DNA of 57,308 bases from Acidobacteriota bacterium. GTDB lineage: Bacteria > Acidobacteriota > Terriglobia > Terriglobales > Acidobacteriaceae. The position numbers and the translations under genes were made by a program. The notes under the pieces are model-generated. The model had not been told where the DNA came from and searched no databases. It saw nothing but the letters and a program-made list of their open reading frames with translations. Numbering within the stretch: position 1 is the first letter of the stretch; each line of letters starts with the position of its first letter. Shown one piece after another: positions 14,651 to 41,148 of the stretch. Location: positions 1 through 57,308 of the forward strand of contig JAJZVZ010000010.1 of assembly GCA_021846945.1 (NCBI GenBank), in the 5' to 3' direction.

Positions 14651-15874
14651 CTACCAGACCGCGCTTGCGAGCAGAACCGGCGGGCCATCCTTATTGTCGA
14701 TGACATTGGATTTGATGACGAGTTCAATGTTCCTGCCTTCCCAGCCGGCTGGCAAGGTCTTCAGTACCCTGTCCAGGTATTGCGGCGATTCAACAAGCTC
14801 GCTGGCGGCCTCGGTCCCGTAGAATCCGAGACCGGCGACCACCATGACAGGCCCCTCGGTGGTGGAATCGTAGAACCGCGCCACAATCGCATAATCGGTT
14901 GCGATGGAAGCAAACGGTACCGAGTAATCGATCCTCCATCGGGTATCGGCCGGGTTTTGCCTGTCTTCAATACGCGCGACTTCGTCATTAAAGACAAAGC
15001 GGTACCGCAGGGAACTCACCAGATGCATCGTCCAGGCATTATTGGTGGCTCCAATCAGGATCAAAGGCCGCCCACGAATATCGATCAAACTGCTCTCGCG
15101 GGCCTCTTTCACCTCATAGGTCTTATTTCTCTTCGTCAAAACCCCCGCCACATGAGCAAGGGCAACAGCGCTTAAGAGCGAAACATGATGATACGGCTCC
15201 TCTCCGTAGTCCAGGAAGCTCAAGTTCGGCGACTCCGGCGCCAGGTGCCGAGGATGGCTCGTTCCAATGGCGATGAGTACCGGCCGGGAATCTCGATAGA
15301 AGGGTTCCCAGAACTTCTGGGACATCGAGACGGTTGGAGTGGAGATGCGATGTGCCTGAACATGCGCAAAGATTCGCCACCCAATGATCCCCAGGGCCAG
15401 AGCAAGAAGAGGCACCCAGAAGAGCCGCAATCCTTTCTCGGCCTTGAGATCCCGCTCCGGCTGCTGTTCGGTGGCTCGCGGCCGAGCACCCGCTTCATGG
15501 GGAACCAGAATAAACTCCGGCACATAGGAGCCGAGCGGTAGTTCTATACGAATCCTGGAGCTATTGCCGTTCTCGTGATAATACTGCGCGATGCGCTTGC
15601 GCACTTCTCCGGCGGTGAAGCGTACTACCGGATCCGCATTCGTGTCGTAGTTGGGGTCCCTTCCGAAGACCTCAACCCCCAGCGTACGCTCCTTGAGGTG
15701 ACTGGCGCGGCCATCCAACGCCGCATTCACAACAAACTTGAGGAAGGCCGGGTAACGCTTGCTGCCCTTGAAGTGGTAGCTGGCGAGAATTCCCTCCAGC
15801 TCCTTCAGAACCAGATCGCGCTCCTCGGGAGTTGTCGGGATCCAATGCACCGTAGAGTTCAAGGTCTCCGGCAT
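14651..15874 (-). CDS. Membrane-anchored putative regulator (paralog 1), divergent from Oar-like receptor
   Basis: A 407-residue protein in three parts. Residues 20-122 form a basic N-terminal domain with KRYPAFLKFVVNAALDG, LKERTLGVEVFGRDP, DPVVRFTAGEVRKRIAQYY and GSYVPEF, a domain common in Acidobacteria and predicted to bind DNA or act in signalling. Residues 150-170 are a single membrane helix. Residues 185-407 are a C-terminal domain, presumably periplasmic, starting FWEPFYRDSRPVLIAIG and ending GWEGRNIELVIKS. The whole architecture recurs in the gene at 39886-41148. The layout resembles ToxR/CadC one-component membrane regulators, but that role is inference. It is divergently transcribed from an Oar-like TonB receptor across a 645-bp gap. 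Confidence 0.8.
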   Translation of the reverse strand: MPETLNSTVHWIPTTPEERDLVLKELEGILASYHFKGSKRYPAFLKFVVNAALDGRASHLKERTLGVEVFGRDPNYDTNADPVVRFTAGEVRKRIAQYYHENGNSSRIRIELPLGSYVPEFILVPHEAGARPRATEQQPERDLKAEKGLRLFWVPLLALALGIIGWRIFAHVQAHRISTPTVSMSQKFWEPFYRDSRPVLIAIGTSHPRHLAPESPNLSFLDYGEEPYHHVSLLSAVALAHVAGVLTKRNKTYEVKEARESSLIDIRGRPLILIGATNNAWTMHLVSSLRYRFVFNDEVARIEDRQNPADTRWRIDYSVPFASIATDYAIVARFYDSTTEGPVMVVAGLGFYGTEAASELVESPQYLDRVLKTLPAGWEGRNIELVIKSNVIDNKDGPPVLLASAVW

Positions 15875-16519
15875 TGCTTTCGCCTTCGCGATTCAACTGA
15901 CCGTAGCATACGCTACCGCTCAAAAATTGTCATCCAGTGATTGGCAACAAATTGCCGATGGGAGGGTGGGATTTACCATCCCATTACCTAAGTCATAAAG
16001 TCTTTATTTTAAATAATATACAGAAAGTATAACAGCCTTAACCGTTTGTAACATACCGTATCACTCTTGCAATTGCTGTGTGAGCGGAAGAGCATCCAAC
16101 GACAGTCTCGCCACGTGTATTCCGACGGCATAGAAATGGAAATGAATTGGAGGAGTGAATCCCCTTGTGAAATCTATCTGAAAGCTGGAGTGAATTGGCT
16201 TTTATATCCCTGTCAAGGCAGACCGGTGTCCACTATTCTCATCGAAATGACGAGCTCCGTGGGAATACTTTCTTGTCACGAAAAGCAGCGCAACCCCAGT
16301 GGGAACATTCCCCCATCGGCCTGATTCATCGACATGATGACGGAGCCGGGGCAGAGGAATTGCCGGGCTTGCAAAGTACATAACAATGGGAACCACCCAT
16401 CTTCACGAAATGACAGCTCGCTTTGCTGTTTGATTTTGCCTTCAAGGAAGCATTGCCGGGCGGCTCCCCAACAACTTAAGGCCGAAAGGCCCATGAAAGA
16501 CATTTAGCAGGAGGAAACG
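15875..16519. other. 645-bp divergent intergenic region
   Basis: Separates the membrane regulator (minus) from the Oar-like receptor (plus). It contains a palindrome cluster at 15943-15983 close to the regulator start, an AT-rich stretch at about 15994-16035, and AGGAGGAAAC just before the receptor ATG. No gene is supported; the long leader before the receptor (about 450 bp from the AT-rich stretch) has no recognised riboswitch. Confidence 0.4.
15943..15983. promoter_or_regulatory. Two adjacent palindromes, candidate operator
   Basis: GGCAA-CAAA-TTGCC (15943-15956) is followed by TGGGAT-TTACC-ATCCCA (15967-15983), a perfect 17-bp palindrome. They lie 69-109 bp upstream of the membrane regulator start and far upstream of the Oar-like receptor. 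A 17-bp palindrome also lies between the second regulator-receptor pair. Function as an operator is inferred. Confidence 0.35.
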
Positions 16520-19500
16520 ATGTGTGATCGCAAATATTGGGGGTACATTTTAGGGCTCTTCACCGTCCTATGTGTGCTTGGGCTTTCACAGGCATTGTTC
16601 GGGCAGGCAGTCAACGGAACCCTGCTGGGAACCGTCACCGACACCACCGGTGCTGTCGTTCCCAACGCCAAAGTTACGGCAACGCTGACATCGACAGGCA
16701 CGGCCCACATCACAACTACAAACGAAAGCGGCAACTACACATTTCCGGACATGCAGCCGGGCATGTATTCAGTGACCGTATCGGCCACTGGATTCAAGGT
16801 CACTGAGCAGAGCAATATCAACGTGCTGACGAACACCTCTCCGCGCGTCGACATCACGCTACAGCCAGGCGAAGTGACCCAGACGGTGACCGTCACCGAG
16901 GCGCCTCCGCTGCTCCAGACTGACCGCGCCGACATCAGCACCAAGATCCAGTCCGCGCAGCTGGCAGAGTTGCCGATGACAACCAACAACAACTTCCAGT
17001 CGCTCCTCAACCTGGTTCCCGGCACCGCACCGGCGGTCTTCCAACACTCGCAGTTCTTCAACCCCCAGGACTCGCTGCAAACTGAAGCCAATGGTATGCC
17101 GCGCGAAGGCAACCTCTATCAGATTGAAGGTATTGACGACGACGAGCGCACCGGCCTTCTGCAGATCCTGATTCCGCCGGCGGCGGCCATTCAGTCGGTG
17201 GACATCTCGACGAACAACTTTGAAGCCGAGCTGGGCCGCGCCATCGGAGCCGTTACCAACGTGACCCTAAAGTCCGGCTCCAATAACCTTCATGGTTCGG
17301 TCTATGAGTACATCCAGAACAACGCGGTAGACGCACACTCGTACTTCCAGCGGGGTCCTCTGGGGCATCTGGCGTACAACTATTTTGGCGGCAGCGTCGG
17401 CGGCCCCATCATCAAGGACAAGCTGTTTTTCTTCGGCGATTATCTGCGCACCACCGACGGCGAGACGGTTTCGGGCACATTCACGGCGCCCGATGCTCGC
17501 TGGTACACGGCGAACAGCAGCGGCAATATTGATCTGAGCGGAGCCCTGGTGAACGGCGCCGGGCAGATCTACGATCCGGCCACCGGCGATGGCACCGCGG
17601 CCCATCCGCGCACGCCGTTCCCCAACAATCAAATCCCCATCAACAGGGTGAATCCGGTCTCGCTCACGATCTTGAAGGATCTGGTCGCCGCGGAGAACCA
17701 ATACGGGACATTGAACTCAAGCAAGCCTCTGTCGAACCCCGCGAATAACTACTTCACGAATCTTCCTTTCAGCAAGACCGGGAACAGTGTCGACCTTAAG
17801 TTTGACTACGCTCCCAGTGAAAGCAACCACCTGAGCTATCGCTGGAGCTACCAGCGGACCGGCATCTTCCAGGCGCCTGCATTCGGCCCCTTCCTGGGTG
17901 GTCCGGCGGCGGGTGGCTTTGAAGCCAATGGCACCCAAAGCACATACAGCACGGCCGGGAACTACGATCACGTCTTTTCGCCAAGATTCTTTACGGAAGT
18001 GCGCATCGGTGTCGCCCACCTGCGCAACCAGGCGAATCCGAACGACTACGGAAGCAATGATGCAACCACCATTGGCATTCCGGGCGTAAACCTCTCCGGC
18101 AACAAGTTCACCTCGGGGCAGGCGTCCATCAACATCAACGACGGTTTCTCCAATCCGCTCATGGGTTACTCGGCCTCGCTGCCCTGGATCCGGGCAGAGT
18201 CCAACATTGACATGGTGAATAACTGGACGAGGATCATCGGCAACCACACCATCAAATGGGGCGTGGACCTTCGCAGGGTGCGCGACGATCTGCTGCAGGA
18301 CCAGACCTTCGGCCCGCGCGGTGCGTTCACCTTCAGCGCTAATCAAACCTCCCAGGCCGGCGCCAAGACGAACATCGCCAATGACATGGCCAGCTTCCTG
18401 CTTGATCAGCCGAGCCAGACCGGCCGCGACGTGAACTCCATCTTCCCGGCCTACCGGCAATGGTGGTTCTTCGTCTATGGCGGTGACAAATGGCAGGCTA
18501 CGCCGAAGACGACCATTGACTATGGGTTGCGCTGGGAGTTTTATCCGCCGGCAACGCCCAAGAACTCCGGCGGCTTCTCCAACTACATCCCAAGTAACAA
18601 CACCCTGGTCATTGCCGGCATCGGCGGCAACCCGGCGAACCTCGGCATGCAGACCCGCTATCGCTACTTTGCGCCGCGCACCGGCATCTCCTACCGCGTA
18701 ACCGACGCTACCGTTCTTCGCATGGGCTTCGGCATCAGCTATACGCCGTTCCCTGACAACACCTATGCGTATAACTATCCGGTTCGCTCGAACAACAGCT
18801 ATCAGCCTGCGGGCGCCTCGGCCTTTACGCCTGCCGTGCTTTCTGACGGCGTAACGGTCGCAACCTTCCAGGCCGGCTTCCCGGCTCCGGTTCCGGTTCC
18901 GATTCCTTCCAATGGAATCATCCAGGCAACCACGGCGCAGTTGAAAAACCAGGTCTATTTCTACATTCCGCTCAACTACAAGAACCCCTACGCCATGTCC
19001 TGGAACGCGGTGTTGCAGCAGGCATTAGGCAACGACTACTCACTGCAGGTAGCCTATGTGGCCAATCATGGCGTGGACATTTCGGGATCGCAGAACATCA
19101 ACCTTCCCGGCACGTATGGCGGTGGAAATGCCTCCATGCCTGAGAACCTTCTCTTTGGACGCACGGCGGCAACCAACCAGTACTTCCTTGCCTTTTCGTC
19201 CAATTACGAGTCGCTGCAAACGCAACTGACCAAGCGCTTCTCGCACGGCTTCTCCTTCACCACCGCGTTCACGTGGGGTAAAGAGCTGGGCTACATCAAC
19301 GACGATGACGGCGGCCTGCAGTTCTTCATCGACCAGCGCCGCAATTATGGTCCTGCCGACTATGACCGGGCCAAGAACTTCGAGCAGAGCTTTACCTGGC
19401 AGCTCCCGTTCGGAAAAGGGCACGCCTTGCTCAACTCGCGCGCGGCAGACCTGATCGCTGGGGGTTGGAGGCTTACCGGGATCATTTCGGCTGTCTCCGG

Positions 19501-19966
19501 CCTGCCGTTTACCGTGTTTGCCAACGGAGGCACGCTGAACACGCCCGGAACCGCGCAGACTGCGAACATTACCGGCAGCATGCATGTGCTGCATCACATC
19601 GGATCAGGCCAACAGTGGTTTGATCCCTCCGTCTTCTCACAGCCCTCAGGCTGCCCCGGATCCACGACACCTTGTCCGAATCCAGGGTTGGGCAATACAG
19701 GCAGGAACCAGTTCCGCGGCCCCGCCTATATGCAGAACAACTTGTCTATAGCAAAGAACTTCGCGATATGGCGCGAGTCGACGCTGGCGATGCGCCTCGA
19801 TGCCTTCCAGCTCACCAACACGCCGCAGTTCAACAACCCAAACACCGGCCTTATCACAAACTCCAACTTCGGTCAGGTCACCAGCACCCTGGGCAGCGGC
19901 CAGGGCGCAGTGAACGGCATCGGTGGCGGCCGCACTTTGCAGGCGTCAGCTACGATCAACTTCTAG
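16520..19966 (+). CDS. Oar-like TonB-dependent outer-membrane receptor (1)
   Basis: An 1148-residue outer-membrane protein with ATG behind AGGAGGAAAC. Residues 1-29 are a signal peptide (LGLFTVLCVLGLSQALFGQA). A carboxypeptidase-regulatory-like beta domain follows at about 30-115 (GTVTDTTGAVVPNAKVTATL, YSVTVSATGFK), then a plug region (LQTEANGMPREGNLYQIEGID, GGSVGGPIIKDKLFFFGDY) and a large beta-barrel ending in a terminal Phe (LQASATINF), as barrel-assembly substrates do. These proteins are the Acidobacteria counterparts of SusC-type receptors and probably bind or import oligosaccharides. It is followed by an intrinsic-type hairpin at 19994-20026 and pairs divergently with the membrane regulator. 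Substrate unknown. Confidence 0.92.
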   Translation: MCDRKYWGYILGLFTVLCVLGLSQALFGQAVNGTLLGTVTDTTGAVVPNAKVTATLTSTGTAHITTTNESGNYTFPDMQPGMYSVTVSATGFKVTEQSNINVLTNTSPRVDITLQPGEVTQTVTVTEAPPLLQTDRADISTKIQSAQLAELPMTTNNNFQSLLNLVPGTAPAVFQHSQFFNPQDSLQTEANGMPREGNLYQIEGIDDDERTGLLQILIPPAAAIQSVDISTNNFEAELGRAIGAVTNVTLKSGSNNLHGSVYEYIQNNAVDAHSYFQRGPLGHLAYNYFGGSVGGPIIKDKLFFFGDYLRTTDGETVSGTFTAPDARWYTANSSGNIDLSGALVNGAGQIYDPATGDGTAAHPRTPFPNNQIPINRVNPVSLTILKDLVAAENQYGTLNSSKPLSNPANNYFTNLPFSKTGNSVDLKFDYAPSESNHLSYRWSYQRTGIFQAPAFGPFLGGPAAGGFEANGTQSTYSTAGNYDHVFSPRFFTEVRIGVAHLRNQANPNDYGSNDATTIGIPGVNLSGNKFTSGQASININDGFSNPLMGYSASLPWIRAESNIDMVNNWTRIIGNHTIKWGVDLRRVRDDLLQDQTFGPRGAFTFSANQTSQAGAKTNIANDMASFLLDQPSQTGRDVNSIFPAYRQWWFFVYGGDKWQATPKTTIDYGLRWEFYPPATPKNSGGFSNYIPSNNTLVIAGIGGNPANLGMQTRYRYFAPRTGISYRVTDATVLRMGFGISYTPFPDNTYAYNYPVRSNNSYQPAGASAFTPAVLSDGVTVATFQAGFPAPVPVPIPSNGIIQATTAQLKNQVYFYIPLNYKNPYAMSWNAVLQQALGNDYSLQVAYVANHGVDISGSQNINLPGTYGGGNASMPENLLFGRTAATNQYFLAFSSNYESLQTQLTKRFSHGFSFTTAFTWGKELGYINDDDGGLQFFIDQRRNYGPADYDRAKNFEQSFTWQLPFGKGHALLNSRAADLIAGGWRLTGIISAVSGLPFTVFANGGTLNTPGTAQTANITGSMHVLHHIGSGQQWFDPSVFSQPSGCPGSTTPCPNPGLGNTGRNQFRGPAYMQNNLSIAKNFAIWRESTLAMRLDAFQLTNTPQFNNPNTGLITNSNFGQVTSTLGSGQGAVNGIGGGRTLQASATINF

Positions 19967-19993
19967 CGTAGGCTGTCGTTAACCGCATCCCAT

Positions 19994-20040
19994 AAGCCGG
20001 CCATCGCTCCCCGCGGTGGCCGGCTTCTCCTTGGGGTTTT
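19994..20040 (+). terminator. Probable intrinsic terminator
   Basis: A perfect 10-bp stem, AAGCCGGCCA (19994-20003) with TGGCCGGCTT (20017-20026), sits 28 bp after the Oar-like receptor stop. A run of four T follows at 20037-20040 after a short spacer, so it is a somewhat loose Rho-independent terminator. Confidence 0.6.
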
Positions 20041-20098
20041 ACAATTGCACTGCTCGACGAACCCCGGCGCAATCGCCAACCGAAAGGAACTACAAACG

Positions 20099-21073
20099 AT
20101 GAGTATTTCAAGACGAAGCTTTCTCGCAGGCGCGGGAGCCCTGGGCGCCACACTTGCGGCGCGGCCGCGCTTTGCCTTCGCGGAGTTGAATTCGCCCTTC
20201 AGGGTTGCCGTCATCAACGACGAAATTACCTCGGACTTTGATCATGCCTGTTATGTTGCGGCACATGATTTCGGCATGGGCTGGATCGAGCTGCGCTCCA
20301 TGTGGCGCACAAATATTGATAGCCTGAGCCCGGCGCAGGTTGCCGAGTCGAAGAAGATCCTCGCCAAGTACAAGCTTAAAGTTACCGACATTGGAAGCCC
20401 GCTCTTCAAGACCGACTGGCCGGGAGCTCCAAAATCAAGATACGGCTCCAAGGCTGATCTGCACCTGGCCCCGGAGACAACGTTCAAGCAGCAGAACGCC
20501 ATTCTTGAGCGCTGCATTGAAATGGCCAAGGAATTCAACACCAACAAGATCCGCTGCTTTGACTTCTGGCGTCTTGACGACGTAAAGCCCTATCGGGCCG
20601 CCATCAATGACAAGCTGCTCGAGGCCGCGGAAACCTGCGGCAAGCATGGCATCAAGCTGGTGCTGGAGAATGAACCCTCCTGCAACACCGCGACCGGCCG
20701 CGAAGCTGCCGCGACTCTGAACGCCATCCAGACACCGCACCTGGGCCTGAATTGGGATCCGGGCAATGCCGTCATGCGCGGCGAACTTGATGCTTTTCCC
20801 ACTGCGTGGGAGATGCTGCCCAAGCACCGCATCTACCACTGCCACGTGAAAAACACCATTAAGAATGCCCAGGGGAAACTCGTCTGGTCACCTGTCGACA
20901 AGGGCTACGTCAACTGGACAGCACAGTTCCGCGCTCTCAAGCAGGCCGGCTACCACGACGCCGTAAGCCTGGAGACGCACTGGCATGGCGGCGGCACGCC
21001 GGAGCAGTCCACGCGCATCAGCTGGGCGGGGATGAAGAAGGACCTGGAGGCTGCAGGCTGCCTCTCGGCATAG
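20099..21073 (+). CDS. Tat-exported xylose-isomerase-like TIM-barrel protein
   Basis: A 324-residue protein of the sugar phosphate isomerase/epimerase (AP endonuclease 2) superfamily. The ATG at 20099 follows GAAAGGAAC and starts MSISRRSFLAGAGALGATLA, a twin-arginine signal; the upstream start at 20045 would bury it. Barrel landmarks with likely metal ligands are KLVLENEPSC (Glu), LGLNWDPGNAV (Asp), HCHVKNT (His) and AVSLETHW (Glu). Members isomerise, epimerise or dehydrate sugars; Tat export implies metal loading in the cytoplasm and action in the periplasm. Lies between the receptor and a set of exported Gfo/Idh/MocA genes. Exact reaction unknown. Confidence 0.88.
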   Translation: MSISRRSFLAGAGALGATLAARPRFAFAELNSPFRVAVINDEITSDFDHACYVAAHDFGMGWIELRSMWRTNIDSLSPAQVAESKKILAKYKLKVTDIGSPLFKTDWPGAPKSRYGSKADLHLAPETTFKQQNAILERCIEMAKEFNTNKIRCFDFWRLDDVKPYRAAINDKLLEAAETCGKHGIKLVLENEPSCNTATGREAAATLNAIQTPHLGLNWDPGNAVMRGELDAFPTAWEMLPKHRIYHCHVKNTIKNAQGKLVWSPVDKGYVNWTAQFRALKQAGYHDAVSLETHWHGGGTPEQSTRISWAGMKKDLEAAGCLSA

Positions 21074-21209
21074 CTCGTAAGGCAAGTATCCAGCTCTTGT
21101 TGGTCGGCGTGCATCCATGAGCGCCGGCCAACTCTAATGCTACGAAGTAAGATCGAGATTCGATCCGCGGGGAGCTTGCGCCTTGTACCGCAAATTCCCG
21201 CTGCGGACC

Positions 21210-22160
21210 CTACACCGTCGAATACTTCGTGCAAAGTTCGCGAATCTTGGCAATCTGGCCGGGCACGGCCGCGGCAGCGGTCTGTCCACCGCGCGAGTCG
21301 CCTTCATACTCCAGCGACATATAACCCTTGTGCCCCGCATCCGCAAACATCTTCCACACGCGATCCATATCAATCGGCGTGCCATCGTCGAAATGGTCGC
21401 GGATGTGCGAAACCGTTGCGTAGGGAATGCAGGCCGCGATTTGCGCATACTGGTCTTGTGTGGACGTGGGAATGAAGTGCGTAATGTCGAGGTTGATGCC
21501 CGCATAGGGCGAATTCACCCGATGCATAATCTCCAGGCAAACGTCCGCGCTCTGCGATACGCCGGAGTGATCCTCCAGGCCAAGCCGGATGCCTTTGGGC
21601 GCCGCGTAGTCGCAAGCCTCTTTCAGTCCCTCCACAACCCATCCGGTGGCTTCCTGAATGGTTGTACCAGCGGGAAGCTTACCTGCGAACACCCGCAGAT
21701 GCGAGGCGCCCAGCCGGTCTGTCACGTCGATCCATTTCTTGATGTCGCTGACCACCTGCGCCCGCTTGGCCGCATCCGCCTGCACCAGGCTCGATCCGCA
21801 GGCCGCCCCGGAAAACGGCACTGCATTCTGATAAGCCAGATAACGAAGGTTTTCGAGATACCCGGGGTCGGTGGACTTCAGGTAGTACACCGTCATATCC
21901 ACACCATCCACCCGCAGTTCCACACCCTTCCTGATGAAGTCCTCCATCGTCATCTGCCCGTGCGTGAGCATCTCGCGATACGAATACGCACAGCAGCCAA
22001 CCAGCAGCCTTGCCATCTTTGCCGGATCACCGGACTCCGCGGGAGCAGCTGCGCTTGCGTGCGGTGCTCCCATGCTCAATCCAGCGCCAGCCAGCGCGCC
22101 GGCCCCAGCCGTCTTTAGAAACTCTCTACGCCCCATCGTGTTCTTCATCTCGTTTCTCAC
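21210..22160 (-). CDS. Tat-exported xylose-isomerase-like TIM-barrel protein (second)
   Basis: A 316-residue protein of the same superfamily as the 20099 gene but only distantly alike. The start is GTG 22160 or ATG 22148; AGGAGG lies only three bases before the GTG and 15 before the ATG, so neither is ideal. The twin-arginine segment is MGRREFLKTAGAGALAGAG. Barrel landmarks: IRLGLEDHSGV (Glu), AGINLDITHF (Asp), VSHIRDHF (His) and YMSLEYEG (Glu), again the four expected metal ligands. Divergent from the Gfo/Idh/MocA gene at 22381, with 220 bp between; both probably take part in one periplasmic sugar pathway. Reaction unknown. Confidence 0.87.
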   Translation of the reverse strand: MRNEMKNTMGRREFLKTAGAGALAGAGLSMGAPHASAAAPAESGDPAKMARLLVGCCAYSYREMLTHGQMTMEDFIRKGVELRVDGVDMTVYYLKSTDPGYLENLRYLAYQNAVPFSGAACGSSLVQADAAKRAQVVSDIKKWIDVTDRLGASHLRVFAGKLPAGTTIQEATGWVVEGLKEACDYAAPKGIRLGLEDHSGVSQSADVCLEIMHRVNSPYAGINLDITHFIPTSTQDQYAQIAACIPYATVSHIRDHFDDGTPIDMDRVWKMFADAGHKGYMSLEYEGDSRGGQTAAAAVPGQIAKIRELCTKYSTV

Positions 22161-22284
22161 TCTCCTCCTGAATGCCTGTTTGCCCGCGCGCGAACAGGGG
22201 GCAAAAATCGCGCAACCAGTCTACTCCAACTTCACGGTCTGCGTCCGGGTTCTCGTGCCATGGCGTACCAAAATGTATCCATTC

Positions 22285-22312
22285 ACATCATTGGGGACAA
22301 GGTATATGATGT
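22285..22312. promoter_or_regulatory. Inverted repeat in divergent promoter region
   Basis: ACATCAT (22285-22291) and ATGATGT (22306-22312) form perfect 7-bp arms with a 14-base spacer, about 70 bp upstream of the Gfo/Idh/MocA ATG and 125 bp upstream of the divergent TIM-barrel gene. It could be an operator; chance occurrence cannot be excluded. Confidence 0.25.
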
Positions 22313-22380
22313 CGCGTGACTTGAAGGCGCCTGATTTTTCCGCTTTGTTTTTTTACCAGTATTCGCAATGAGGAGAAGGC

Positions 22381-25108: not shown

Positions 25109-25128
25109 TCACGTAAAAAACAGAATTC

Positions 25129-32321: not shown

Positions 32322-33568
32322 TCCAGAGCGAAGCAGGTTTGACGCGAAGCCGCAGGATCTTTCGCGGCTGGTGGGTTGCAGCCGCGGCCTCGGTTACCTA
32401 CGGCATCGCCCAGGGAATTCCCTATTACAACGTCAGCTTTTTCTATGACTATTTTGAGCGCTCGTTCGGTTGGAGCAAGGCGGAGATCACGCTGGGCTTT
32501 CCCCTGGCCGCTTTGTTCATGGTCTGGGTTGGGCCGGTTTTGATTCCGCGCTTCTCGCAGCGCAAACTGATTCTGTTCGGCACCTTTTGCACGGCGCTTT
32601 CCCTTGCTGGATTTGCATGGATGGGCGGTTCGCTGGGCGTATATCTTGCGCTGTGGGCGCTTTATACCGTCGGCTATCTTACCTCCGGACCCATTCCACA
32701 TCAGATCATCATCACGCACTGGTTTGAGCGCAGACGCGGCACCGCGATGGGTATTGCCTATCTCGGCGTAGGCATCATTGGCGCGCTCGGTTCTGTCCTG
32801 GTGAACCGGGTAACCGCGGGACACGGATTTCGGACTGCGCTGTGTGCGCTGGCAGTCTGCATGTTTGCCGGATGGCCGCTGGTCTGGTTTGTTTTGCGCG
32901 ACACGCCGGCGGATTGCGGCGAATATATCGACGGCCTGGAAGCCGCCGCTGCGCCCCTGCCGGGATCCGCGCTCTCTATCCGGTCTCTGTTGCGGCTTCG
33001 CGCCTTCTGGATTCTGCTCTTCGCGAGTGTTTGCTCGCTCGCATCCATCGGCGCCATTTCGCAGCACATGAAGTTCATCTTCCTCGACGCTGGCTTCAAG
33101 CCAGGGCAGCAGCTTGACTCTACCTGGCGCACCGCTTCGGTGATTGTGCTCTGTTCCAGCACCGCCGGCCGGCTCCTGATCGGAGTGCTCGCAGACTGCA
33201 TCTCCACGCGCATCGTGATGATCGGCAGTTATCTGCTGACTGCGCTGACAGTGGCGCCCTTACTCACGCTGCATCCTTCTCACACGCCCTATGGCTTCTC
33301 GATTCTCTTTGGCATTGCGATGGGTGCAGACTATATGCTCATCCCGCTGATGTTGGCTGAGGAGTTCGGCCTGGCGACGGTAGCGCGCGCCATGGCCATC
33401 ATCCTTCCCGTGAACACGATTGCGCAGGCATGGTTTCCCTATTTCATTGCGGTGCTGCGTGACCACTCCGCCAGCTATCGCTCTCCACTCTTCACGGTGC
33501 TGGCTGTGGCTTTACTGGGCGCGCTCTCCATGCTGGCCCTGCCAGCGGGTGACCGGTCGGCTGCGTAA
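32282..33568 (+). CDS. MFS transporter, oxalate/formate-antiporter-like
   Basis: A 428-residue protein with about 12 membrane helices. Features include a cytoplasmic N-terminus RSRRIFRGWWVAAAASVTYG and the loop between helices 4 and 5, THWFERRRGTAMGIAYLGVGIG-like, typical of the OFA/monocarboxylate group. The ATG at 32282 overlaps the PQQ gene by 40 bp; a TTG at 32339 would avoid most of that and is the alternative. The position behind a periplasmic dehydrogenase suggests import of the oxidised sugar acid; this is inference. Last gene of the cytochrome-PQQ-MFS operon. Confidence 0.88.
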   Translation: MDSATGSEAIRELIQSEAGLTRSRRIFRGWWVAAAASVTYGIAQGIPYYNVSFFYDYFERSFGWSKAEITLGFPLAALFMVWVGPVLIPRFSQRKLILFGTFCTALSLAGFAWMGGSLGVYLALWALYTVGYLTSGPIPHQIIITHWFERRRGTAMGIAYLGVGIIGALGSVLVNRVTAGHGFRTALCALAVCMFAGWPLVWFVLRDTPADCGEYIDGLEAAAAPLPGSALSIRSLLRLRAFWILLFASVCSLASIGAISQHMKFIFLDAGFKPGQQLDSTWRTASVIVLCSSTAGRLLIGVLADCISTRIVMIGSYLLTALTVAPLLTLHPSHTPYGFSILFGIAMGADYMLIPLMLAEEFGLATVARAMAIILPVNTIAQAWFPYFIAVLRDHSASYRSPLFTVLAVALLGALSMLALPAGDRSAA

Positions 33569-33890
33569 TGAGCAGCGACCGCGGAATTCAGAATCTTATC
33601 ATCCAGTTGCGCCGCCTACGTGATCTCGCTCATACCACTGAACTGCGGCCAGTATCGAGAGGGTCGCGAGCGCGTTATCCGTCATCATAGCGGGCCTGTT
33701 TCCGGTGGCTGGACGACCAATAAGCCCGACTCCTTAACTACACGGGCTTATCAGAAGTTGGCGATGAAGCTCCGAAGAAGACCGAGTGCAGTATGCATTC
33801 GGTAGCGCCGCAATTACTGTGAGCCTTCAGAAACGGTGACGAGTACGGGTGAGCGGAGTTACGAATCCCACGCTTGTAGAGCCTGGACGA
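33569..33890. other. 322-bp convergent intergenic region
   Basis: Between the MFS gene and the sulfatase gene, which point toward each other. Apart from the hairpin at 33720-33751 nothing recognisable is seen. Confidence 0.3.
33720..33751. terminator. Hairpin between convergent genes
   Basis: A perfect 9-bp stem, ATAAGCCCG (33720-33728) with CGGGCTTAT (33743-33751), loop 14. It has no T tract on either side, so it is at best a weak bidirectional terminator or an mRNA 3' end stabiliser. Confidence 0.35.
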
Positions 33891-35522
33891 CTAATCCAGA
33901 ATTCGACTCGCGGTGTGCTCTGCAAAATCCGGCATGGGGACAATCTCCGCTAGACCGCGCGGATCGCGATTCATGGGCGCGATGCCGGTGGTGTTCACAT
34001 ACCAATGCATGAGCCGCTGTTCAGCGTTGTGCTGTACCGCGGCATACGCTGCTTCCCCGAAGCGGTTGTTGCGTTCTTGCGGATCATCCTTACGCAGGTA
34101 GAGCTCCGAGATTCCCTGCGGACGTGAGACAAAGGTGTAATCGGCGGTGCGAACCGCAGCCACTCGCGAGACGGTTTCAGGTTCAGCGATCTGTAAATGA
34201 AGGCGGTCGTAGTACCAGGTGTTCTTGGCCGGAACCGGCTCGAAGCACTGCGCCTCATACGTGTTGAAACCACCTTCCGTAAAGGCCCCGCGCTCGTGAT
34301 CCCCCGGCCCGCCGAGGATCTGCGGCATTAAAGATCGCGCAAAGTGCGTATGGCTGGCCTGTGTGCCTGCAAGCTCTAGTGTTGTCGCCATGAAGTCAAA
34401 GAGTTCAACCGGTTCTGCAACGCGATGACCAGCCTTGCCGCCCGGCACGCGCGCGATCAATGGCACATGCGTCAGACAGCGTTCCATACCGGAAGGCCAC
34501 TTTTCCACCAGGCCAAAATCGCCCGCGTAATCGCCGTGGTCCGATACGACAAACAGTGAGGTGTCAGCCGCATGGTTTGTACGCTCCATCGCGTCCAATA
34601 GCTCGCCAAGCAGCCAGTCTACATAGGCGGTTTTGTCGAGATAGGTTGCTCGAATTCTGCGGTAGACATCGGGCGAAACCGTGTCAAGGCCGTAGGCCTG
34701 CAGCATGCGCTCGATATGCTTTGGTCGGTTGGGCAAATTCGTCGGCAGCAGATTTTTCACATCCGCCGGGTCATGTAACCCAGCGAAGCCTTCAGGGGCG
34801 TTATAGGGCGGATGAGGCGAACCAAGCGCAAGAAAGAGAAAAAACGGCCTATCGGCTTCGCGCCGACTGAGAACGCGCTTTGCCGCTTCAATAATGTGAT
34901 AATCTCCGCTTTCGCGGCGATCACCTGGAGGAATGTCGCTGATGAAGGTGAGCGGACCGGGAGGTTTGATCGCCTGGCGGCTGGCGGCCGATCTGGCATG
35001 CGGCATACTGTCAACTTGAAACTCCTTATCCAGGCCCCACGCTGTCACCGAGTCGTCAAACGTGCGTGCAGCCAGCGCGTCGTTCTTCCCGGCCCAAAAG
35101 ACGTCGTAGTCCGCTTTACGGAGATCGCGAAAGAGATTCGGTTCATCTGGGCGCAAGAAATACATCTGCGATCGATGCCCTCGCACTGACGTTGGCCAGC
35201 CGGTCAGCATCGAGCAGCGCGACGCTCCGCAGATCGGATAAGCAACGTGGCAATCTTCAAAGAGAACGCCCTCACGTGCAAGCCGGTCGAAATTGGGCAT
35301 CTTCCCAATCTTGTTGCCATAGCATGACAGAACATCTGCCCGCAATTCGTCGGGCATGAAACACACGATATTCTGCCGCGAGCGAATTGCGGAGTCTATC
35401 TGGGCCGCTTTGCCTGCAGTCGAACTTGCCGCCGTCTGGGCGCCCGTTAACGGAGCTGTCGCGCCGGTCAGCAAAGTTGCGCTCGACCAACCGAGAAAGC
35501 GCCTTCGTGAAAGATCGCTCAT
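33891..35522 (-). CDS. Sulfatase, CxAxR type, Tat-exported
   Basis: A 543-residue S1-family sulfatase. ATG 35522 is seven bases from AGGGGG; a second ATG at 35528 is closer to it. The twin-arginine signal is SRRRFLGWSSATLL. The residue to be converted to formylglycine is Cys98 in CGASR (98-102), followed by SMLTG; the usual Pro is Ala. Further landmarks: MPDELRADVLSCYGN near the N-terminus, GSPHPPYNAP, and SDHGDYAGDFGLVEKW with the metal ligands. A CxAxR motif is acceptable to the radical-SAM maturase (anSME) but is not the CxPxR preferred by FGE. No maturase is in the window. Probable role: removing sulfate from polysaccharide; the substrate is unknown. Confidence 0.93.
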   Translation of the reverse strand: MSDLSRRRFLGWSSATLLTGATAPLTGAQTAASSTAGKAAQIDSAIRSRQNIVCFMPDELRADVLSCYGNKIGKMPNFDRLAREGVLFEDCHVAYPICGASRCSMLTGWPTSVRGHRSQMYFLRPDEPNLFRDLRKADYDVFWAGKNDALAARTFDDSVTAWGLDKEFQVDSMPHARSAASRQAIKPPGPLTFISDIPPGDRRESGDYHIIEAAKRVLSRREADRPFFLFLALGSPHPPYNAPEGFAGLHDPADVKNLLPTNLPNRPKHIERMLQAYGLDTVSPDVYRRIRATYLDKTAYVDWLLGELLDAMERTNHAADTSLFVVSDHGDYAGDFGLVEKWPSGMERCLTHVPLIARVPGGKAGHRVAEPVELFDFMATTLELAGTQASHTHFARSLMPQILGGPGDHERGAFTEGGFNTYEAQCFEPVPAKNTWYYDRLHLQIAEPETVSRVAAVRTADYTFVSRPQGISELYLRKDDPQERNNRFGEAAYAAVQHNAEQRLMHWYVNTTGIAPMNRDPRGLAEIVPMPDFAEHTASRILD

Positions 35523-35842
35523 TATCATCCCCCTGTACGTCCTCTACAGCCACGGTTATAGGTACCGGATATCAGACTTACGAGACAATTCGATCCGTAC
35601 TAAATTGCACACCCTGTTCAATCGACTCCGAAGTCAGGACTGAACACCTACCCGCCGAATGCTCGCGACTTGCGTTGTGACTGAAAAATCATCATGTTGT
35701 CAAGGCCGAGCGAATTTCTTCGTGCGTGGCATCGCCCCCTGTTCAGGTTCCCTGAGCCACGCACATGATCCGCCAAACACAACCCAATCACGAGATGCGC
35801 GGTCCGATGGAATAAGAAAGTAATCTGCATGTGCAAGTCGGA
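35523..35842. other. 320-bp intergenic region
   Basis: Between the Oar-like receptor 3' end and the sulfatase start, both on the minus strand. It should hold the sulfatase promoter, but no clear hexamer pair, hairpin or short gene was found. Confidence 0.3.
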
Positions 35843-38800
35843 TCAGAAGATATATTTCGCGGACAACTGGAAGAAGCGAGCATCGGGCATAAATGTCTGA
35901 AAGCTCCTGGAGGTAGTAATCTGACCGCCATTTGTATTGTCATTCTTCACACTGGGATTGCCGTAGGCGGGCGTATTAAGAAGATTGAATGCGTCAGCGC
36001 GAAACTCAAAATGCTGCTCATGATAAGTCGCAAAGTCTTTAAACAATGACATGTCGATACGTTCATAGCCTGGGCCGTAAATCTGATTTCGCTTTCCGCC
36101 CAGATATGTAACCACCTGAGAATAGTCTGACACTAAGGATCCCGCTCCCGACTTGGGGATTGACGATCCGGGCAAGGGGTTTGCAAAGGCGCAGGGGTTA
36201 TACCAGTTCCTCGTGTTTTTGGTGCGAGTTGGACAGGTGACACCAGGGTTTGTAGGATCAGGAGTTCCACCCGGTGCAAAGTAGTCTGTGCCTTTTACAA
36301 TTGCAAACGCACTGCCTCCGGATGCTGTGGCGATATCCGGAGTAACATTGAATGGCTGACCAGTCTCTGCGGAGAAAGTAAGGTTCGCCGCCCAATCTCC
36401 CGCTATGACATTGAGTACATTTTTGTGGTTCATATAGACGCGCCCTACTCCGAACGGTAGCTCATAAAATCCGTTAAAAGTAAATCGCTGGCGAACATCG
36501 AATTCAGAATTGCTATAGTCCTCAGAGATCGGAATTAAATTCGTGTTGCGGTAGGGACCGCCATAGCCGCCAAGGGGCTGAATCGCATCGTCCAGAGAGT
36601 GGGACCACGTGTACGTCGCAAGAAAATTCAGCCCATTCGCGTAGCGCTTCTTCAGACTCGTCTGGAAGGAGTTATAGTCAGACATACCAGCATAATGCAT
36701 AAATTGCGTTGCTCCAAAATCCGGGAACGGGCGAACAAACTGCTCGTTGTTGGCTGGATTTTGCAATGCTTCAGGGTTGTTGAAATCTACCTTTGTCTCC
36801 AAGTGGCGCGCCCCGCTCCCGACATACCCTAAGGACGCGACCATGTTACTTGATAAGCTGCGCTCTACCGTTACGTTGTAGTCCATTGCATAGGGAGTCG
36901 TTGCCAAGGCATCAGAGCCTTGCATGGTTGGAAAGCGGACGAAATTCTGCAGGCCTGCTGCTAATGCTGAAGAGAAGCCGTTTTCCAGGGTTATTCCAGT
37001 GGATGGGCAGTTATTTGCGCTACAATTTGGAGCACTGAAGTTGTCTGTAAAACTAAAGGGATAGTTATTTCCCAAATTGTCAGCGCCTCCTATGTCCACT
37101 AAGCCACCGTAAAAGACGCCGAAGCCGCCGTGTATCACGGTCTTAGGATCTACCGAATAGGCAAAGCCAATTCGGGGGGCGAAATTCGCCTTTTGGGCGT
37201 CAATCAAATATGGGTTGCCAGAATACTGCAGAGTGATGTTATCTTTCGCCAAGAGTGCGATAAAGTTCGGAGACAGGGCTACGTTCTTACTTTCTGCCGG
37301 TATCTGGTATACCGCAGATCCGGTGGCAACGCCCAAGGGTCCAGTAACATGGTACGTGGCTTGCCGGCCAGCATTCTCTTTGTATGTCTGAGTAAAGTCA
37401 TAACGGAGGCCGAGGTTCAAGGTCAACGTCCTGCTCACCCTCCAATCGTCCTGGAAATATCCAGCGTCATACCAGCGGGCATCGTTGACCTCTGATTCGT
37501 TTGACACTGATGCGGCGTGGACTTGATCTGCCAGGAAATCTGCCGCTCCAAATCCTGTAAAGCTCTTTCCTAGATTACTCGTGTACAGACCGCTAAATTG
37601 GTATTGACCTCGCGAGAAGGCTGGCTGCAAGATGGCAAAGCGAATACTTTGGAAGTTGAGTCCAAACTTTAGCGAGTGATTCCCGACAATCTTTGTGATG
37701 TTATCCAGAATCTGGTAGATGTTCTGGTGTTCAATTGACGGATCATAGGAATCTGAGCCAAGCTGATTAATTCCGCTGATCTGGGCCTGTGGCAAACCGC
37801 CATTAAAGGGGAACCCATTCCCGAAAGGAATACCGCCGAGACCAAGTGTTCCGGCGAGATTAGTGGCGTAATTTACTTGAAGGAATGAGTAAGCGCCCCA
37901 GTCGTATCCGATTCGAAATTCATTGGTAAGCGTAGGTGTGAAAATATGAGATTCGCTGAACATGAAGCTTTCACTTAGGCTGTCATCATAACCGGTCGCA
38001 TAATTATTTGCTCCGTCAAGAACAGGTCCGAGCGGCGGCGTTATATAAGCGGGGATGTGTAAGTAGCTGAAGCGCGCGTAGGACTCATCTTTCGAGCTGA
38101 GATTCCAGTCCATACGGCTATCCCATTGCCAAGTATCGCTGAGCTGTTTCAGGTTCGTAGTATAGTTATTGTAAGTTTTTCCTCCGTTGGCGTTAGGCAA
38201 AGGGTATAAATTCAGAAGAGATTGCGCTACCTTATTGATCTGCTGCGGGCAGAAGGTATTGTTTTGTCCACTGCATGAGAGCAGGGCGGTACCGCCGGAG
38301 TTCGGCTGGTAGAGTTGAATTGGCTTGCTGGATCCGGTCAAAGAAGTGTTCAACAATTCAGAGAAATTCCCCTGGCGCATGAGAGGTGTTGGGACCGTAA
38401 TGGTGGTGGGCTGACCTATGACTATGCGATTAGCCTCAGCATCCCCGAAATAGAAGAGCTTGTTCTTGACGATGGGAAGTCCCAATGTCGCGCCAAACTG
38501 GTTCTCCCGATATTCTGGAATAGTCAGAGCATTAAAGTCACGCGCATCTAAAACATCGTTTCTGAAATACTCCCACAGATCGCCGTGGACCTGATTTGTA
38601 CCAGATTTGATGCTGGCATTAATGACAGCGCCGGCAGAATGACCGAACTCGGCGCTATAGTCGGATGTGTCGACTTTGAACTCAGCCAGCGCATCCGGTG
38701 GTGGGCGGACAACGAAACTCGCGGCGCTCTGCAGATCGGGCAGAGCAGTGTTGTCGTCCACGCCATCCAGAATAAAGTTGTTTTGCGTGGCAATTTGGCC

Positions 38801-39370
38801 GTTGGCGAAGAAGTCGCCTGTACCGCTGCCGCGCGAATTCCCTGAAGACGGAGCAACGCCGTTGGCGAGTTGCGCGACGAAGACCCAGTTTCTTCCGTTT
38901 AGCGGTATATTGTTAATGGTTTCGGTGCTCATTACCTGGCCGACGGAGCCCTGCTGGGTCTGTAAGAGTGGGGGCGCTGTCGTTACCGTGACGGTCTGAG
39001 TTACTTCGCCGGGTGTTAAGGTGAGATCGACATTCAAGCGCTGCTGCAGGTTCAATTGTATGTGTTCTTGTGTCGTCGCTTTAAATCCGGCAGCGGTTGC
39101 GTTTACCCTATAGTTACCAATTTTAATAGGTGAAAATACGTAGATTCCGCTGCCATTCGATGTGGTATGAAGCACGACGCCTGTGTTGATTTCGGTGAGT
39201 GTGACTTGAGCACCGGGAATCACTGCTCCGGAACTGTCCTGGACGACGCCTGTGATTGTGCCTTGGTCAACTTGGGCAGTTGTCTGCCGAGCGGTGAAGA
39301 AAAGTAGAAACAATCCAAAACACATCCACGGAATTACTGATGCAAAGCCTCCCAAATGTTTTCTCATCAT
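35843..39370 (-). CDS. Oar-like TonB-dependent outer-membrane receptor (2)
   Basis: An 1175-residue protein; ATG 39370 follows AGGAGG by four bases, with a second ATG right after. Signal peptide IPWMCFGLFLLFFTARQTTAQ, carboxypeptidase-regulatory-like domain at about 35-115 (ITGVVQDSSGAVIPGAQVTL, YRVNATAAGFK), plug (FFANGQIATQNNFILDGVDD), then a beta-barrel ending in Phe (FQLSAKYIF). It shares domain order with the receptor at 16520 but differs in most loops. Its GC content looks lower than its neighbours: one 60-base line I counted (37201-37260) has 26 G/C and another (36301-36360) has 32. Divergent from the second membrane regulator; upstream of the sulfatase on the same strand, which suggests a sulfated glycan target. 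Confidence 0.92.
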   Translation of the reverse strand: MMRKHLGGFASVIPWMCFGLFLLFFTARQTTAQVDQGTITGVVQDSSGAVIPGAQVTLTEINTGVVLHTTSNGSGIYVFSPIKIGNYRVNATAAGFKATTQEHIQLNLQQRLNVDLTLTPGEVTQTVTVTTAPPLLQTQQGSVGQVMSTETINNIPLNGRNWVFVAQLANGVAPSSGNSRGSGTGDFFANGQIATQNNFILDGVDDNTALPDLQSAASFVVRPPPDALAEFKVDTSDYSAEFGHSAGAVINASIKSGTNQVHGDLWEYFRNDVLDARDFNALTIPEYRENQFGATLGLPIVKNKLFYFGDAEANRIVIGQPTTITVPTPLMRQGNFSELLNTSLTGSSKPIQLYQPNSGGTALLSCSGQNNTFCPQQINKVAQSLLNLYPLPNANGGKTYNNYTTNLKQLSDTWQWDSRMDWNLSSKDESYARFSYLHIPAYITPPLGPVLDGANNYATGYDDSLSESFMFSESHIFTPTLTNEFRIGYDWGAYSFLQVNYATNLAGTLGLGGIPFGNGFPFNGGLPQAQISGINQLGSDSYDPSIEHQNIYQILDNITKIVGNHSLKFGLNFQSIRFAILQPAFSRGQYQFSGLYTSNLGKSFTGFGAADFLADQVHAASVSNESEVNDARWYDAGYFQDDWRVSRTLTLNLGLRYDFTQTYKENAGRQATYHVTGPLGVATGSAVYQIPAESKNVALSPNFIALLAKDNITLQYSGNPYLIDAQKANFAPRIGFAYSVDPKTVIHGGFGVFYGGLVDIGGADNLGNNYPFSFTDNFSAPNCSANNCPSTGITLENGFSSALAAGLQNFVRFPTMQGSDALATTPYAMDYNVTVERSLSSNMVASLGYVGSGARHLETKVDFNNPEALQNPANNEQFVRPFPDFGATQFMHYAGMSDYNSFQTSLKKRYANGLNFLATYTWSHSLDDAIQPLGGYGGPYRNTNLIPISEDYSNSEFDVRQRFTFNGFYELPFGVGRVYMNHKNVLNVIAGDWAANLTFSAETGQPFNVTPDIATASGGSAFAIVKGTDYFAPGGTPDPTNPGVTCPTRTKNTRNWYNPCAFANPLPGSSIPKSGAGSLVSDYSQVVTYLGGKRNQIYGPGYERIDMSLFKDFATYHEQHFEFRADAFNLLNTPAYGNPSVKNDNTNGGQITTSRSFQTFMPDARFFQLSAKYIF

Positions 39371-39885
39371 CTATCCTCCTGTCAGATTGAGTGCGAAGCC
39401 TCGATTGGGGAATGCTCCTCGGAGTTCGTGATTACAACGGATGCCTTCGACTTCTACGCGGGCCGCATGGACGAGTTCGTAAACGTCTCCATGATGGCCA
39501 AATCTATGATTGCCACGCACACTAAGCATGCATCAGGCGCATCGCAAGTATGAAACGGTAAGGAGCGCGTCTAATGCCTGCTTACATACGGCAAGTATCA
39601 AGATTGCAATAAGATAACGTGCATTCAGTAACCTTGAGATGGCAGGTAAAATACCTGCGCGAACGTTCCAAATGAGTTTCTGGATAGTCCTTGAGGCCCA
39701 TGCTCATCGGGTAGCTGCAATGTTGGCTAGTGCGACTAAAGCGCGCTTCGCGACTGCATCTAACATGATGCAAATGAATGATTTGCGAGTCTGCAATGGA
39801 TTGGAAAACTCACTCTGTTCCAGATTTAGTGCGGTGTGATATGCTGGCCCGGCTATATGAGAGGCTCCGTTCCGGGTGATTTAAG
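39371..39885. other. 515-bp divergent intergenic region
   Basis: Separates Oar-like receptor 2 from the membrane regulator paralog. It contains the receptor's AGGAGG site and the perfect palindrome at 39642-39658. A 41-codon plus-strand frame (39431-39553) has a transposase-like ITTDAFDFY stretch but is too weak to call. Confidence 0.4.
39642..39658. promoter_or_regulatory. 17-bp palindrome, candidate operator
   Basis: GCAGGTA-AAA-TACCTGC is a perfect palindrome with 7-bp arms. It lies about 230 bp from the regulator start and 270 bp from the receptor start. The other regulator-receptor pair also has a 17-bp palindrome between its genes, with different sequence. Confidence 0.35.
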
Positions 39886-41148
39886 ATGAATTCCTCGAAT
39901 GGCGTTCAGGGTTTGGCGATGATCCCCTCATCTGGGCTAGGGGCAATGGACTCTGGTCCTCCGCTCTGCAATGATGTAGAGGCGGTACTGGCGCAGCTTG
40001 AGCGGATCGTCGAAAGTCCTGCATTTCGGAACAGCAAGCGATATCCGCGCTTCCTAAGATTCATCGTCGAACAAGCGTTGCTCGGACATGCGGACCGCCT
40101 CAAAGAACGCCTTCTGGGCATCGAGGTTTTCGATCGTCCGCCCGATTATGATCTGGCAACTGATCCGATCGTCCGCGTCGCTGCCGGAGAAGTGCGCAAG
40201 CGGCTGGCACAGTACTACGTCGAGAACAGCCATGCGAATGAACTGCGCATCCAATTGCAGCCAGGCTCGTATGTGCCCGAATTCCACTCGCCGCCTAAGG
40301 AAATTCCATCCGAAGCGACTTTGAATCCGGCGCCGATCGCAGGCCTTCCTCCTCTGGAGAACCCGACAAGTCATTTTTCGCCCTCCAGGAACAAGGTGGG
40401 CATCACCATGATTGTGGCAGGTTTCAGTCTGGCCACGATTTTGTGTCTATACGTGGTTAGCAGGCCATCCCCTATCCAGGAGTTTTGGCGGCCATTCATG
40501 GAGTCTGCCGCCCCACCGCTCCTGTGCCTGGGTGACCAAGGACACTCCCAGCCAGACGAAGGTGGTGAAGGGCCGGGGCTGCGAACGGGAATTAACAGCT
40601 TTGACTATCTGGCGCTCGGTGACGTTGAGGCTCTACACCGGATTTCAACAATCTTCGATCGCAGAGGCAAAGCAACCTCGATCTCGAACGCGCGCTCGAC
40701 AACCTTTGCCGATCTATGTCGGCAGCCCGTAGTTCTTATTGGCGGCAGTCCGAACCAATGGACGATGCGCTATATGCAACTCTTGCGCTATCAGCTCGTC
40801 GCGAATTTCACGCCCGGCGTTAATGGCATCCTTGATCGAAATGATCCTCACCGACTCCGCTGGGCTGTCGACTTCAATGCTCCATACAGCACGATTCCAA
40901 AGGAATATGCAATTGTTGCCCGGTTTTTTAACTCCGCAACTGGCCAGCCGACCGTGATTGCCGCAGGCGTTGGCGCGAACGGAGAAATTGCTGCAGCTGA
41001 GTTCTTGACTAACTCTGCCTACTTCAAGGAATTCATCCTGCATGCTCCGCGAGGCTGGGAACATAGAAATATAGAGATCATTTTGGAAACTCAGATGATC
41101 AACGGCACAAACGGACCACCGCAAGTAGTCACAACATATCTCTGGTGA
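39886..41148 (+). CDS. Membrane-anchored putative regulator (paralog 2), divergent from Oar-like receptor
   Basis: A 420-residue paralog of the protein at 14651-15874. N-terminal domain, residues 32-133: KRYPRFLRFIVEQALLGH, LKERLLGIEVFDRPP, DPIVRVAAGEVRKRLAQYY, GSYVPEF. One membrane helix at 171-191. The C-terminal domain from residue 200 shares many fixed positions with paralog 1: FW.PF, ILIG..N.WTM, YAIVARF, GWE.RNIE, GPP.V. That conservation in a probable periplasmic domain suggests binding of a common kind of ligand or partner. It is divergently transcribed from Oar-like receptor 2. The function as a sensor-regulator is inferred from layout and topology. Confidence 0.8.
   Translation: MNSSNGVQGLAMIPSSGLGAMDSGPPLCNDVEAVLAQLERIVESPAFRNSKRYPRFLRFIVEQALLGHADRLKERLLGIEVFDRPPDYDLATDPIVRVAAGEVRKRLAQYYVENSHANELRIQLQPGSYVPEFHSPPKEIPSEATLNPAPIAGLPPLENPTSHFSPSRNKVGITMIVAGFSLATILCLYVVSRPSPIQEFWRPFMESAAPPLLCLGDQGHSQPDEGGEGPGLRTGINSFDYLALGDVEALHRISTIFDRRGKATSISNARSTTFADLCRQPVVLIGGSPNQWTMRYMQLLRYQLVANFTPGVNGILDRNDPHRLRWAVDFNAPYSTIPKEYAIVARFFNSATGQPTVIAAGVGANGEIAAAEFLTNSAYFKEFILHAPRGWEHRNIEIILETQMINGTNGPPQVVTTYLW

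Follow-up and report, generated by a model that had tools for sequence, protein, structure and literature searches.

Two divergent regulator/receptor pairs

The 57,308-nt window analyzed here (the whole stretch taken from contig JAJZVZ010000010.1 of a soil bacterium of the Acidobacteriota, assembly GCA_021846945.1) contains two divergent gene pairs, in each of which a gene for an Oar-like TonB-dependent receptor is transcribed away from a gene for a membrane-anchored protein, termed here r1 and r2 (Table 1). An earlier sequence-only reading of the window had placed these pairs at 14651-19966 and 35843-41148, and the open reading frames (ORFs) lie exactly at these coordinates and in the orientations proposed. 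It had also regarded the two putative regulators as paralogs over all their parts, which is borne out by an alignment with 36% identity over 410 columns (E-value 4e-86) that spans the N-terminal domain, the membrane segment and the C-terminal domain; each protein has one main hydrophobic segment. The receptors are 29% identical to each other, and in Pfam searches both comprise a CarboxypepD_reg domain (PF13620) followed by a large PF25183 (OMP_b-brl_4) barrel, as expected of Oar-like proteins, with no STN domain at E ≤ 1. For r1 and r2 no Pfam family was found over the cut-off and no match in NCBIfam; Pfam revealed no sigma or anti-sigma domain, and neither database a histidine kinase, receiver or AraC domain.

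Table 1. Genes, protein domains and candidate regulatory elements of the two pairs (window coordinates)
Feature	Position	Strand	Basis or remark
r1, membrane-anchored regulator, 407 aa	14651..15874	-	ORF; r2 paralog
r1 N-terminal domain, winged-helix-like, residues 13-122	15509..15838	-	
r1 membrane segment, residues 151-169 (about)	15368..15424	-	hydropathy maximum
r1 C-terminal outer domain, residues 180-407	14654..15337	-	
Putative r1 promoter ATGACA-N17-TATGCT	15905..15933	-	one hit in a promoter scan, against 0.7 by chance
Direct-repeat box GTAACATACCGTATCA	16048..16063	+ (receptor 1 strand)	block conserved in r1, L045-L053 and own-genome L031 intergenic regions
TTGCAA, -35-like element adjoining the box	16067..16072	+	CTTG belongs to the conserved core
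Oar-like TonB-dependent receptor 1, 1148 aa	16520..19966	+	PF25183 E 2e-207, PF13620 E 4e-22
Oar-like TonB-dependent receptor 2, 1175 aa	35843..39370	-	PF25183 E 3.7e-222, PF13620 E 2.9e-20
Box core ACCGTTTCATACTTG	39545..39559	- (receptor 2 strand)	near-identical site before the tandem Oar gene in L083
r2, membrane-anchored regulator, 420 aa	39886..41148	+	ORF; homolog search
r2 N-terminal domain, winged-helix-like, residues 30-134	39973..40287	+	
r2 membrane segment, residues 173-191	40402..40458	+	hydropathy
r2 outer domain as modelled, residues 186-420	40441..41145	+	

Predicted folds of the inner and outer domains

Structural predictions were based on alignments built from 84 of the 120 listed homologs of r2. 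The inner (N-terminal) domain gave a confident AlphaFold2 (AF2) model with a three-helix core followed by a beta-hairpin wing, as in the OmpR/PhoB winged helix, and with a conserved Arg/Lys-rich helix. Its best structural matches are DNA-binding domains of the OmpR/PhoB type, to which all of the first 17 belong, and the ToxR DNA-binding domain is also among the matches. A comparison with PF00486 (Trans_reg_C) in hhalign, using a diverse alignment, gave a weak match that is nonetheless in register (probability 19%, E 0.0012; reversed controls about 1%). Membership in PF00486 was rejected, as r1 and r2 have no match at E ≤ 1, a PF00486 search of the source genome did not list them, and the model has no N-terminal strands. 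We regard the inner domain as a probable divergent winged-helix DNA-binding domain, at the confidence given below for the explanation as a whole. The ToxR-like make-up suggested in the sequence-only reading, i.e. a winged-helix-type inner domain, one membrane segment and an outer domain, is thus recovered by prediction in all its elements.

The model of the outer (C-terminal) domain folds like the cellulose-synthase protein BcsB and the accessory domain of glycosidases from glycoside hydrolase (GH) families GH67, GH84 and GH115. Identity to BcsB/GH67-N-type structures is about 7-16% in structural alignments, and a profile of the domain found no match among PDB sequences. Judging from the modelled fold, the most likely ligand of the domain is a glycan or oligosaccharide. 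A GH115-type gene (window 12051-14303, minus strand) adjoins the r1 pair, and in solved GH115 structures the accessory domain has the fold predicted for the outer domain of these regulators.

Distribution of the family and its genomic neighborhood

The sequence-only reading had proposed a genome-wide count of this architecture beside Oar genes. A profile search of the source genome (5.3 Mb) identified 16 proteins with the N-domain; the C-domain profile matches all 15 that were examined together, as well as the 16th when checked separately. Thirteen of these 15 directly face an Oar gene transcribed away from the regulator across a gap of 146-836 bp (one such Oar gene is cut by the contig end), one lies downstream of a tandem Oar gene, and one has no Oar gene. 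The 16th has a divergent Oar gene about 1.5 kb upstream, with a possible ORF of 277 codons in between. The genome contains 76 PF25183 stretches, some of which share one gene, i.e. dozens of Oar-type receptors, and by a rough estimate about one random gene in 100 would have an Oar start facing it at a distance of up to 1 kb; the linkage of regulator and Oar genes in this genome is far above chance. Orthologs of r2 at E ≤ 1e-85 occur in only three genomes among 119 relatives, the source genome included.

At E ≤ 1e-3, r2 has at least 1916 homologs; r1 and r2 are members of a large and apparently undescribed family of probable membrane-anchored gene switches. None of the 120 listed homologs carries a precomputed Pfam domain. 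Exactly one hydrophobic peak is present in 85 of them; among the other 35, two have no peak above the threshold and the rest have a split peak, an extra weaker peak, or both. For analysis of neighboring genes we used the best 80 of 478 relatives from a scan of genome contigs; 77 of these 80 bear acidobacterial group names. The regulators of L049, L083 and L119 come from contigs labelled Methanoregulaceae, Formivibrio and Nevskia, in a family that is otherwise acidobacterial; an Oar gene adjoins two of the three, and the labels are probably binning or naming errors.

An Oar gene faces the regulator in 30 of the 80 external loci (28 detected by script across gaps of 112-602 bp, the other two, L118 and L122, by reading), and lies within 1.5 kb in any orientation in 38. 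In the 50 remaining loci, we scanned 30 upstream genes against Pfam, some of them separated from the regulator by a small ORF. Divergent from the regulator are 24 of these, encoding GH3 (six), GH2 (four), GH30 (two) and GH141-like (one) enzymes, a sugar transporter of the major facilitator superfamily (MFS), an SSF symporter and a Gfo/Idh/MocA oxidoreductase; the remaining eight comprise a ceramidase-type hydrolase, an amidohydrolase, a GntR regulator, a cytochrome, a tetratricopeptide repeat (TPR)/multihaem protein, a PSD3-domain protein and two proteins without a family. In six congeners we found 31 N-domain proteins, 16 of them with the r1/r2-type C-domain; an Oar gene is faced directly by six of these 16 and by two of the 15 lacking the C-domain (in one case with a 92-codon ORF between), while 4 of 10 scanned congener neighbors are divergent GH3 genes. 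In L069 (4412-6856), L100 (4432-6843) and L107 (4330-6825), the regulator and the divergent Oar gene are separated by a gene for a TPR protein (about 800-830 codons) on the regulator (plus) strand.

These neighborhoods tie the family to glycan loci, with a strong Oar bias in the source genome, and the family probably serves such loci rather than receptors alone. A receptor-only system was rejected because an Oar gene lies within 1.5 kb in just 38 of the 80 external homologs, many others facing glycoside hydrolases or sugar transporters. The mechanism of the sequence-only reading, which had made adjacency of most homologs to TonB receptors its own touchstone, is therefore broadly correct, but its target was drawn too narrowly.

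The wider family includes proteins in which the N-domain and membrane segment are joined to other outer domains. Among 10 scanned of the 15 congener proteins without the C-domain, these are malectin (six), a PD40 beta-propeller (two), TPR/TolB (one) and GH16 (one). A query of the malectin type retrieved 1,521 relatives at E ≤ 1e-10, with PF11721 in 119 of the 120 listed, and a query of the TPR type retrieved 359. The N-domain is fused to malectin in L133, L143, L138, L151, L148 and L149, five of these six having two malectin stretches; the relatives of this type (more than 1000), where they bear a name, are called hypothetical or malectin-domain proteins. L157 (1426-3246, plus strand) combines the winged-helix-like N-domain with a GH16-type domain, i.e. 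it is a regulator with a glucanase-like sensor.

A conserved DNA box upstream of the receptor genes

Alignment of the r1 intergenic region with ten relatives revealed one clear block common to all, embedded in poorly alignable DNA. Its receptor-strand sequence is GTANCA-N4-GTANCA, followed after a few bases by CTTG; in the r1 region, box through core occupy 16048-16069. With at most one mismatch GTANCA-N4-GTANCA occurs in 8 of the 12 sequences of the discovery group (0.18 expected), which is a discovery and not a test, since the pattern was derived from the same sequences. Outside the r1 group the literal repeat was found in only 1 of 31 intergenic regions at the same stringency (0.44 expected), so that a shorter core, CNGT-N6-CTTG, was needed. 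Unbiased counting of dyads in these 31 regions recovered the same core, as ACCG-N7-CTTG in 11 and CAAG-N6-ACGG in 10 (0.33 expected for each); across 12 shuffles the maximum for any dyad was six.

On the receptor strand, CNGT-N6-CTTG is present in 11 of the 12 discovery regions (L054 lacks it), in 16 of 20 further regions from other genomes (absent from L064, L114, L122 and L123; 12 distinct 14-mers among the 16), and in 1 of 11 other own-genome loci, namely that of r2. As a control we took 36 Oar genes of the source genome, selected from those without a family regulator beside them and not comprising every such gene; the core occurs within 600 bp before two of them (Fisher test of 16/20 against 2/36, 1.5e-8). 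On the opposite strand the counts in these four sets are 2, 0, 1 and 2, respectively. The stricter pattern AC[CG]GT-N6-CTTG[CT] is found in 12 of 20 regions versus 0 of 36 controls. A general Oar-promoter element was rejected on the basis of the two matches among 36 controls. Single matches mean little, since ACNGT-N6-CTTG has four matches in the whole window where 1.2 are expected. The sequence logo shows a preference for CCA 3' of the TTG (i.e. TTGCCA) and a weak AT-rich hexamer about 17 bp further. A promoter scan found no sigma-70-like match in the r2 intergenic region; in L045, L046, L049 and L050 a TGACA...TATG-type block like that of the putative r1 promoter recurs.

The core also occurs at putative targets other than receptors. 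Where no Oar gene directly faces the regulator (50 loci), it lies upstream of the regulator in 15 on the strand leading away from it and in 5 on the regulator strand, and downstream in 11 on the plus and 2 on the minus strand. It precedes divergent GH2 genes in L066, L073, L085 and L093 and a sugar transporter gene in L065. Five loci have a tandem Oar gene just downstream of the regulator, with the core in the preceding gap in three (L061, L083, L110); L077 has none in the gap, and the match in L101 is inside the Oar gene. One class of box, AAACNGT[GA]AGTCACTTG, is found before Oar and GH2 genes alike, and all 12 regulators associated with it have Thr at the position of r2 residue 94, as does one of the 26 regulators of the other class. 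This single exception, own-genome L031, is associated with a class-B-like box; in L090, where the helix is of the class-B type, the stretch searched contains no box.

Beside family regulators, 18 loci (15 distinct places) have a strongly conserved, leader-like sequence about 210 nt long with a hairpin and a T-run at its end, e.g. L088 (6454-6663), L094 (2624-2833) and L105 (6424-6635), these three on the minus strand. It precedes a GH3 gene in L088, L094, L098, L105, L109, L116, L175 and L181, and does not in L092, L112 and L171. Rfam gave no match in eight leader-bearing loci, nor in the window. As two-sided changes are seen in 4 of 35 predicted pairs, support for the structure is weak; the stretch is possibly a new leader RNA, attenuator or small RNA.

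Proposed mechanism and alternatives

The architecture and paralogy of r1 and r2, the folds predicted for them, their linkage to receptor genes and glycan genes, and the box, including its strand and specificity, are results of computation; from them we infer box binding by the two proteins, activation, a glycan ligand, and dimerization. The inner domain would bind the tandem direct repeat GTANCA-N4-GTANCA abutting the -35-like TTG before the target gene, here that of the Oar-like receptor, and one membrane helix would connect it with an alpha/beta domain of the BcsB/GH67-N type in the periplasm. This outer domain would sense a glycan or oligosaccharide imported to the periplasm by the receptor, and ligand binding would activate the DNA-bound dimer and raise receptor expression, closing a positive feedback loop. 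At homologous loci a GH2, GH3, GH30 or sugar-transporter gene would take the place of the receptor gene as target. We assign a probability of roughly 0.7 to r1 and r2 being membrane-anchored one-component activators of this kind. Control of the neighboring receptor gene, as the sequence-only reading had suggested, is supported by the conserved direct-repeat box on the receptor strand before that gene together with the OmpR/PhoB-like inner domain.

A number of observations weigh against this proposal. For the inner domain, structural Z-scores are below 8, a range where a merely common arrangement is possible; Foldseek found no significant match (best E 0.99), profile searches none in Pfam or among PDB sequences, and hhalign with a narrow alignment gave PF00486 a probability of only 1.1%. 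An N-terminal antiparallel beta-sheet is a feature of the OmpR/PhoB winged-helix family, and the model, which starts with a helix (H7-22), has no N-terminal strands and lacks this sheet. The K/R bias that would place the N-terminus inside is slight (41 versus 32 in sum). As to the box, the control Oar genes all come from the source genome and the tested loci from other genomes, and 16 of 20 overstates independence because the external loci are related and some nearly identical. Ten of the 13 directly divergent own-genome intergenic regions have no box on the receptor strand, only those of r1, r2 and L031 having it, and no alternative box was found in them; the N-domains of these ten paralogs differ in the region of the recognition helix, so that they may read other sequences. 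Of the 50 loci where no Oar gene faces the regulator, most have no core match, one on the strand leading away from the regulator being present in 15, and 8 of the 11 downstream plus-strand matches are not in a gap directly before an Oar gene. The link between box class and Thr94 is confounded by shared ancestry, which could explain part of it.

The N-domain could bind the box as a repressor, with repression lifted when the outer domain is occupied, as the box abuts the -35-like element and a protein sitting there could equally obstruct the polymerase. We consider this unlikely, since a direct repeat just upstream of a poor promoter (no sigma-70-like match and a weak -10 in the case of r2) would fit an activator better, to judge by the analogous PhoB-type boxes. 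It is improbable that the box is the site of another factor or an ordinary feature of Oar and sugar-gene promoters, with the regulator a mere neighbor: its binding by the regulator is a prediction, and the ten Oar-facing paralogs without it would agree with such a view, but the core is rare before own-genome Oar genes lacking a regulator, yet present at regulator-adjacent GH2 and transporter genes, and the box class tracks the regulator class.

The outer domain might sense the receptor itself or the state of its plug instead of a soluble glycan, as FecR senses FecA. Such sensing, one of the options in the sequence-only reading, would agree with the close divergent pairing with Oar genes seen in the source genome and with both partners being envelope proteins; we nevertheless judge it quite improbable, because fewer than half of the external homologs have an Oar gene nearby and many face hydrolases or transporters, neither receptor has an STN signaling domain, and the outer fold resembles accessory domains of glycan enzymes. 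We found nothing that supports it, and the fold points to glycans. Highly improbable is an N-domain that does not bind DNA, with the protein having another envelope role, in view of the uniform first 17 structural matches, the in-register profile match, the Arg/Lys-rich helix and the linked operator-like box.

Relationship to known systems

The glycan-sensing activator proposed here resembles transmembrane transcription regulators of the ToxR/CadC type in having an inner winged-helix-like domain, one membrane helix and an outer sensor, and in its predicted control of nearby genes from the membrane. It differs in that the inner domain has neither a Trans_reg_C match nor the N-terminal beta-sheet, in its outer domain of the BcsB/GH67-N type, and in the large set of paralogs, most of which face receptor genes in the source genome. 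In the FecA/FecR/FecI system, too, a membrane protein controls a TonB-receptor gene, but r1 and r2 have no sigma or anti-sigma domain; signaling of the FecIR type was rejected, as the receptors have no STN domain. In Bacteroidota, hybrid two-component systems of polysaccharide utilization loci (PULs) and SusR are local regulators near TonB-receptor and glycoside-hydrolase genes, with presumed sensing of periplasmic oligosaccharides; r1 and r2 share this placement, but are one-component proteins without kinase, receiver or AraC domain. The BcsB periplasmic domain and the GH67/GH84/GH115 accessory domains are unlike the present case in that a similar fold sits here on a membrane-anchored regulator.

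The nearest functional parallel we met is provided by ChiS and TfoS of Vibrio cholerae, which are described as membrane-bound regulators of transcription responding to chitin oligosaccharides; in that description ChiS is activated by a chitin-binding protein, while direct chitin sensing by TfoS was left open (PMC11856585). The likeness is one of function. In line with the sequence-only reading, which knew of no system with this make-up, we found none in full-text searches of open-licence PubMed Central (PMC) papers; these searches gave no description of the present regulators or of any regulator of Acidobacteriota Oar genes, nor substrates or regulation of the Oar-type receptors of the source genome. 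According to PMC10269533, many membrane-bound regulators occur in Acidobacteriae; their DNA-binding domains were identified there by Pfam profiles, for which reason that census probably missed the r1/r2 family. The accessible text of PMC3174227 does not mention it.

Acidobacteriota are abundant in soil. We see about even odds that they run their glycan loci with a modular one-component system of their own, in which one chassis of winged helix and membrane helix carries interchangeable periplasmic glycan sensors, among them BcsB/GH67-N-like, double malectin and GH16-like ones, and in which each member reads a class-specific direct-repeat box by a local receptor, hydrolase or transporter gene. 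If this is true, a modular family does in these bacteria the job of the hybrid two-component systems and SusR in Bacteroidota. The presence of a sugar-type sensor and a candidate operator beside each receptor would allow substrates to be assigned to receptors, and a family of at least 1,916 proteins would be opened to direct test.

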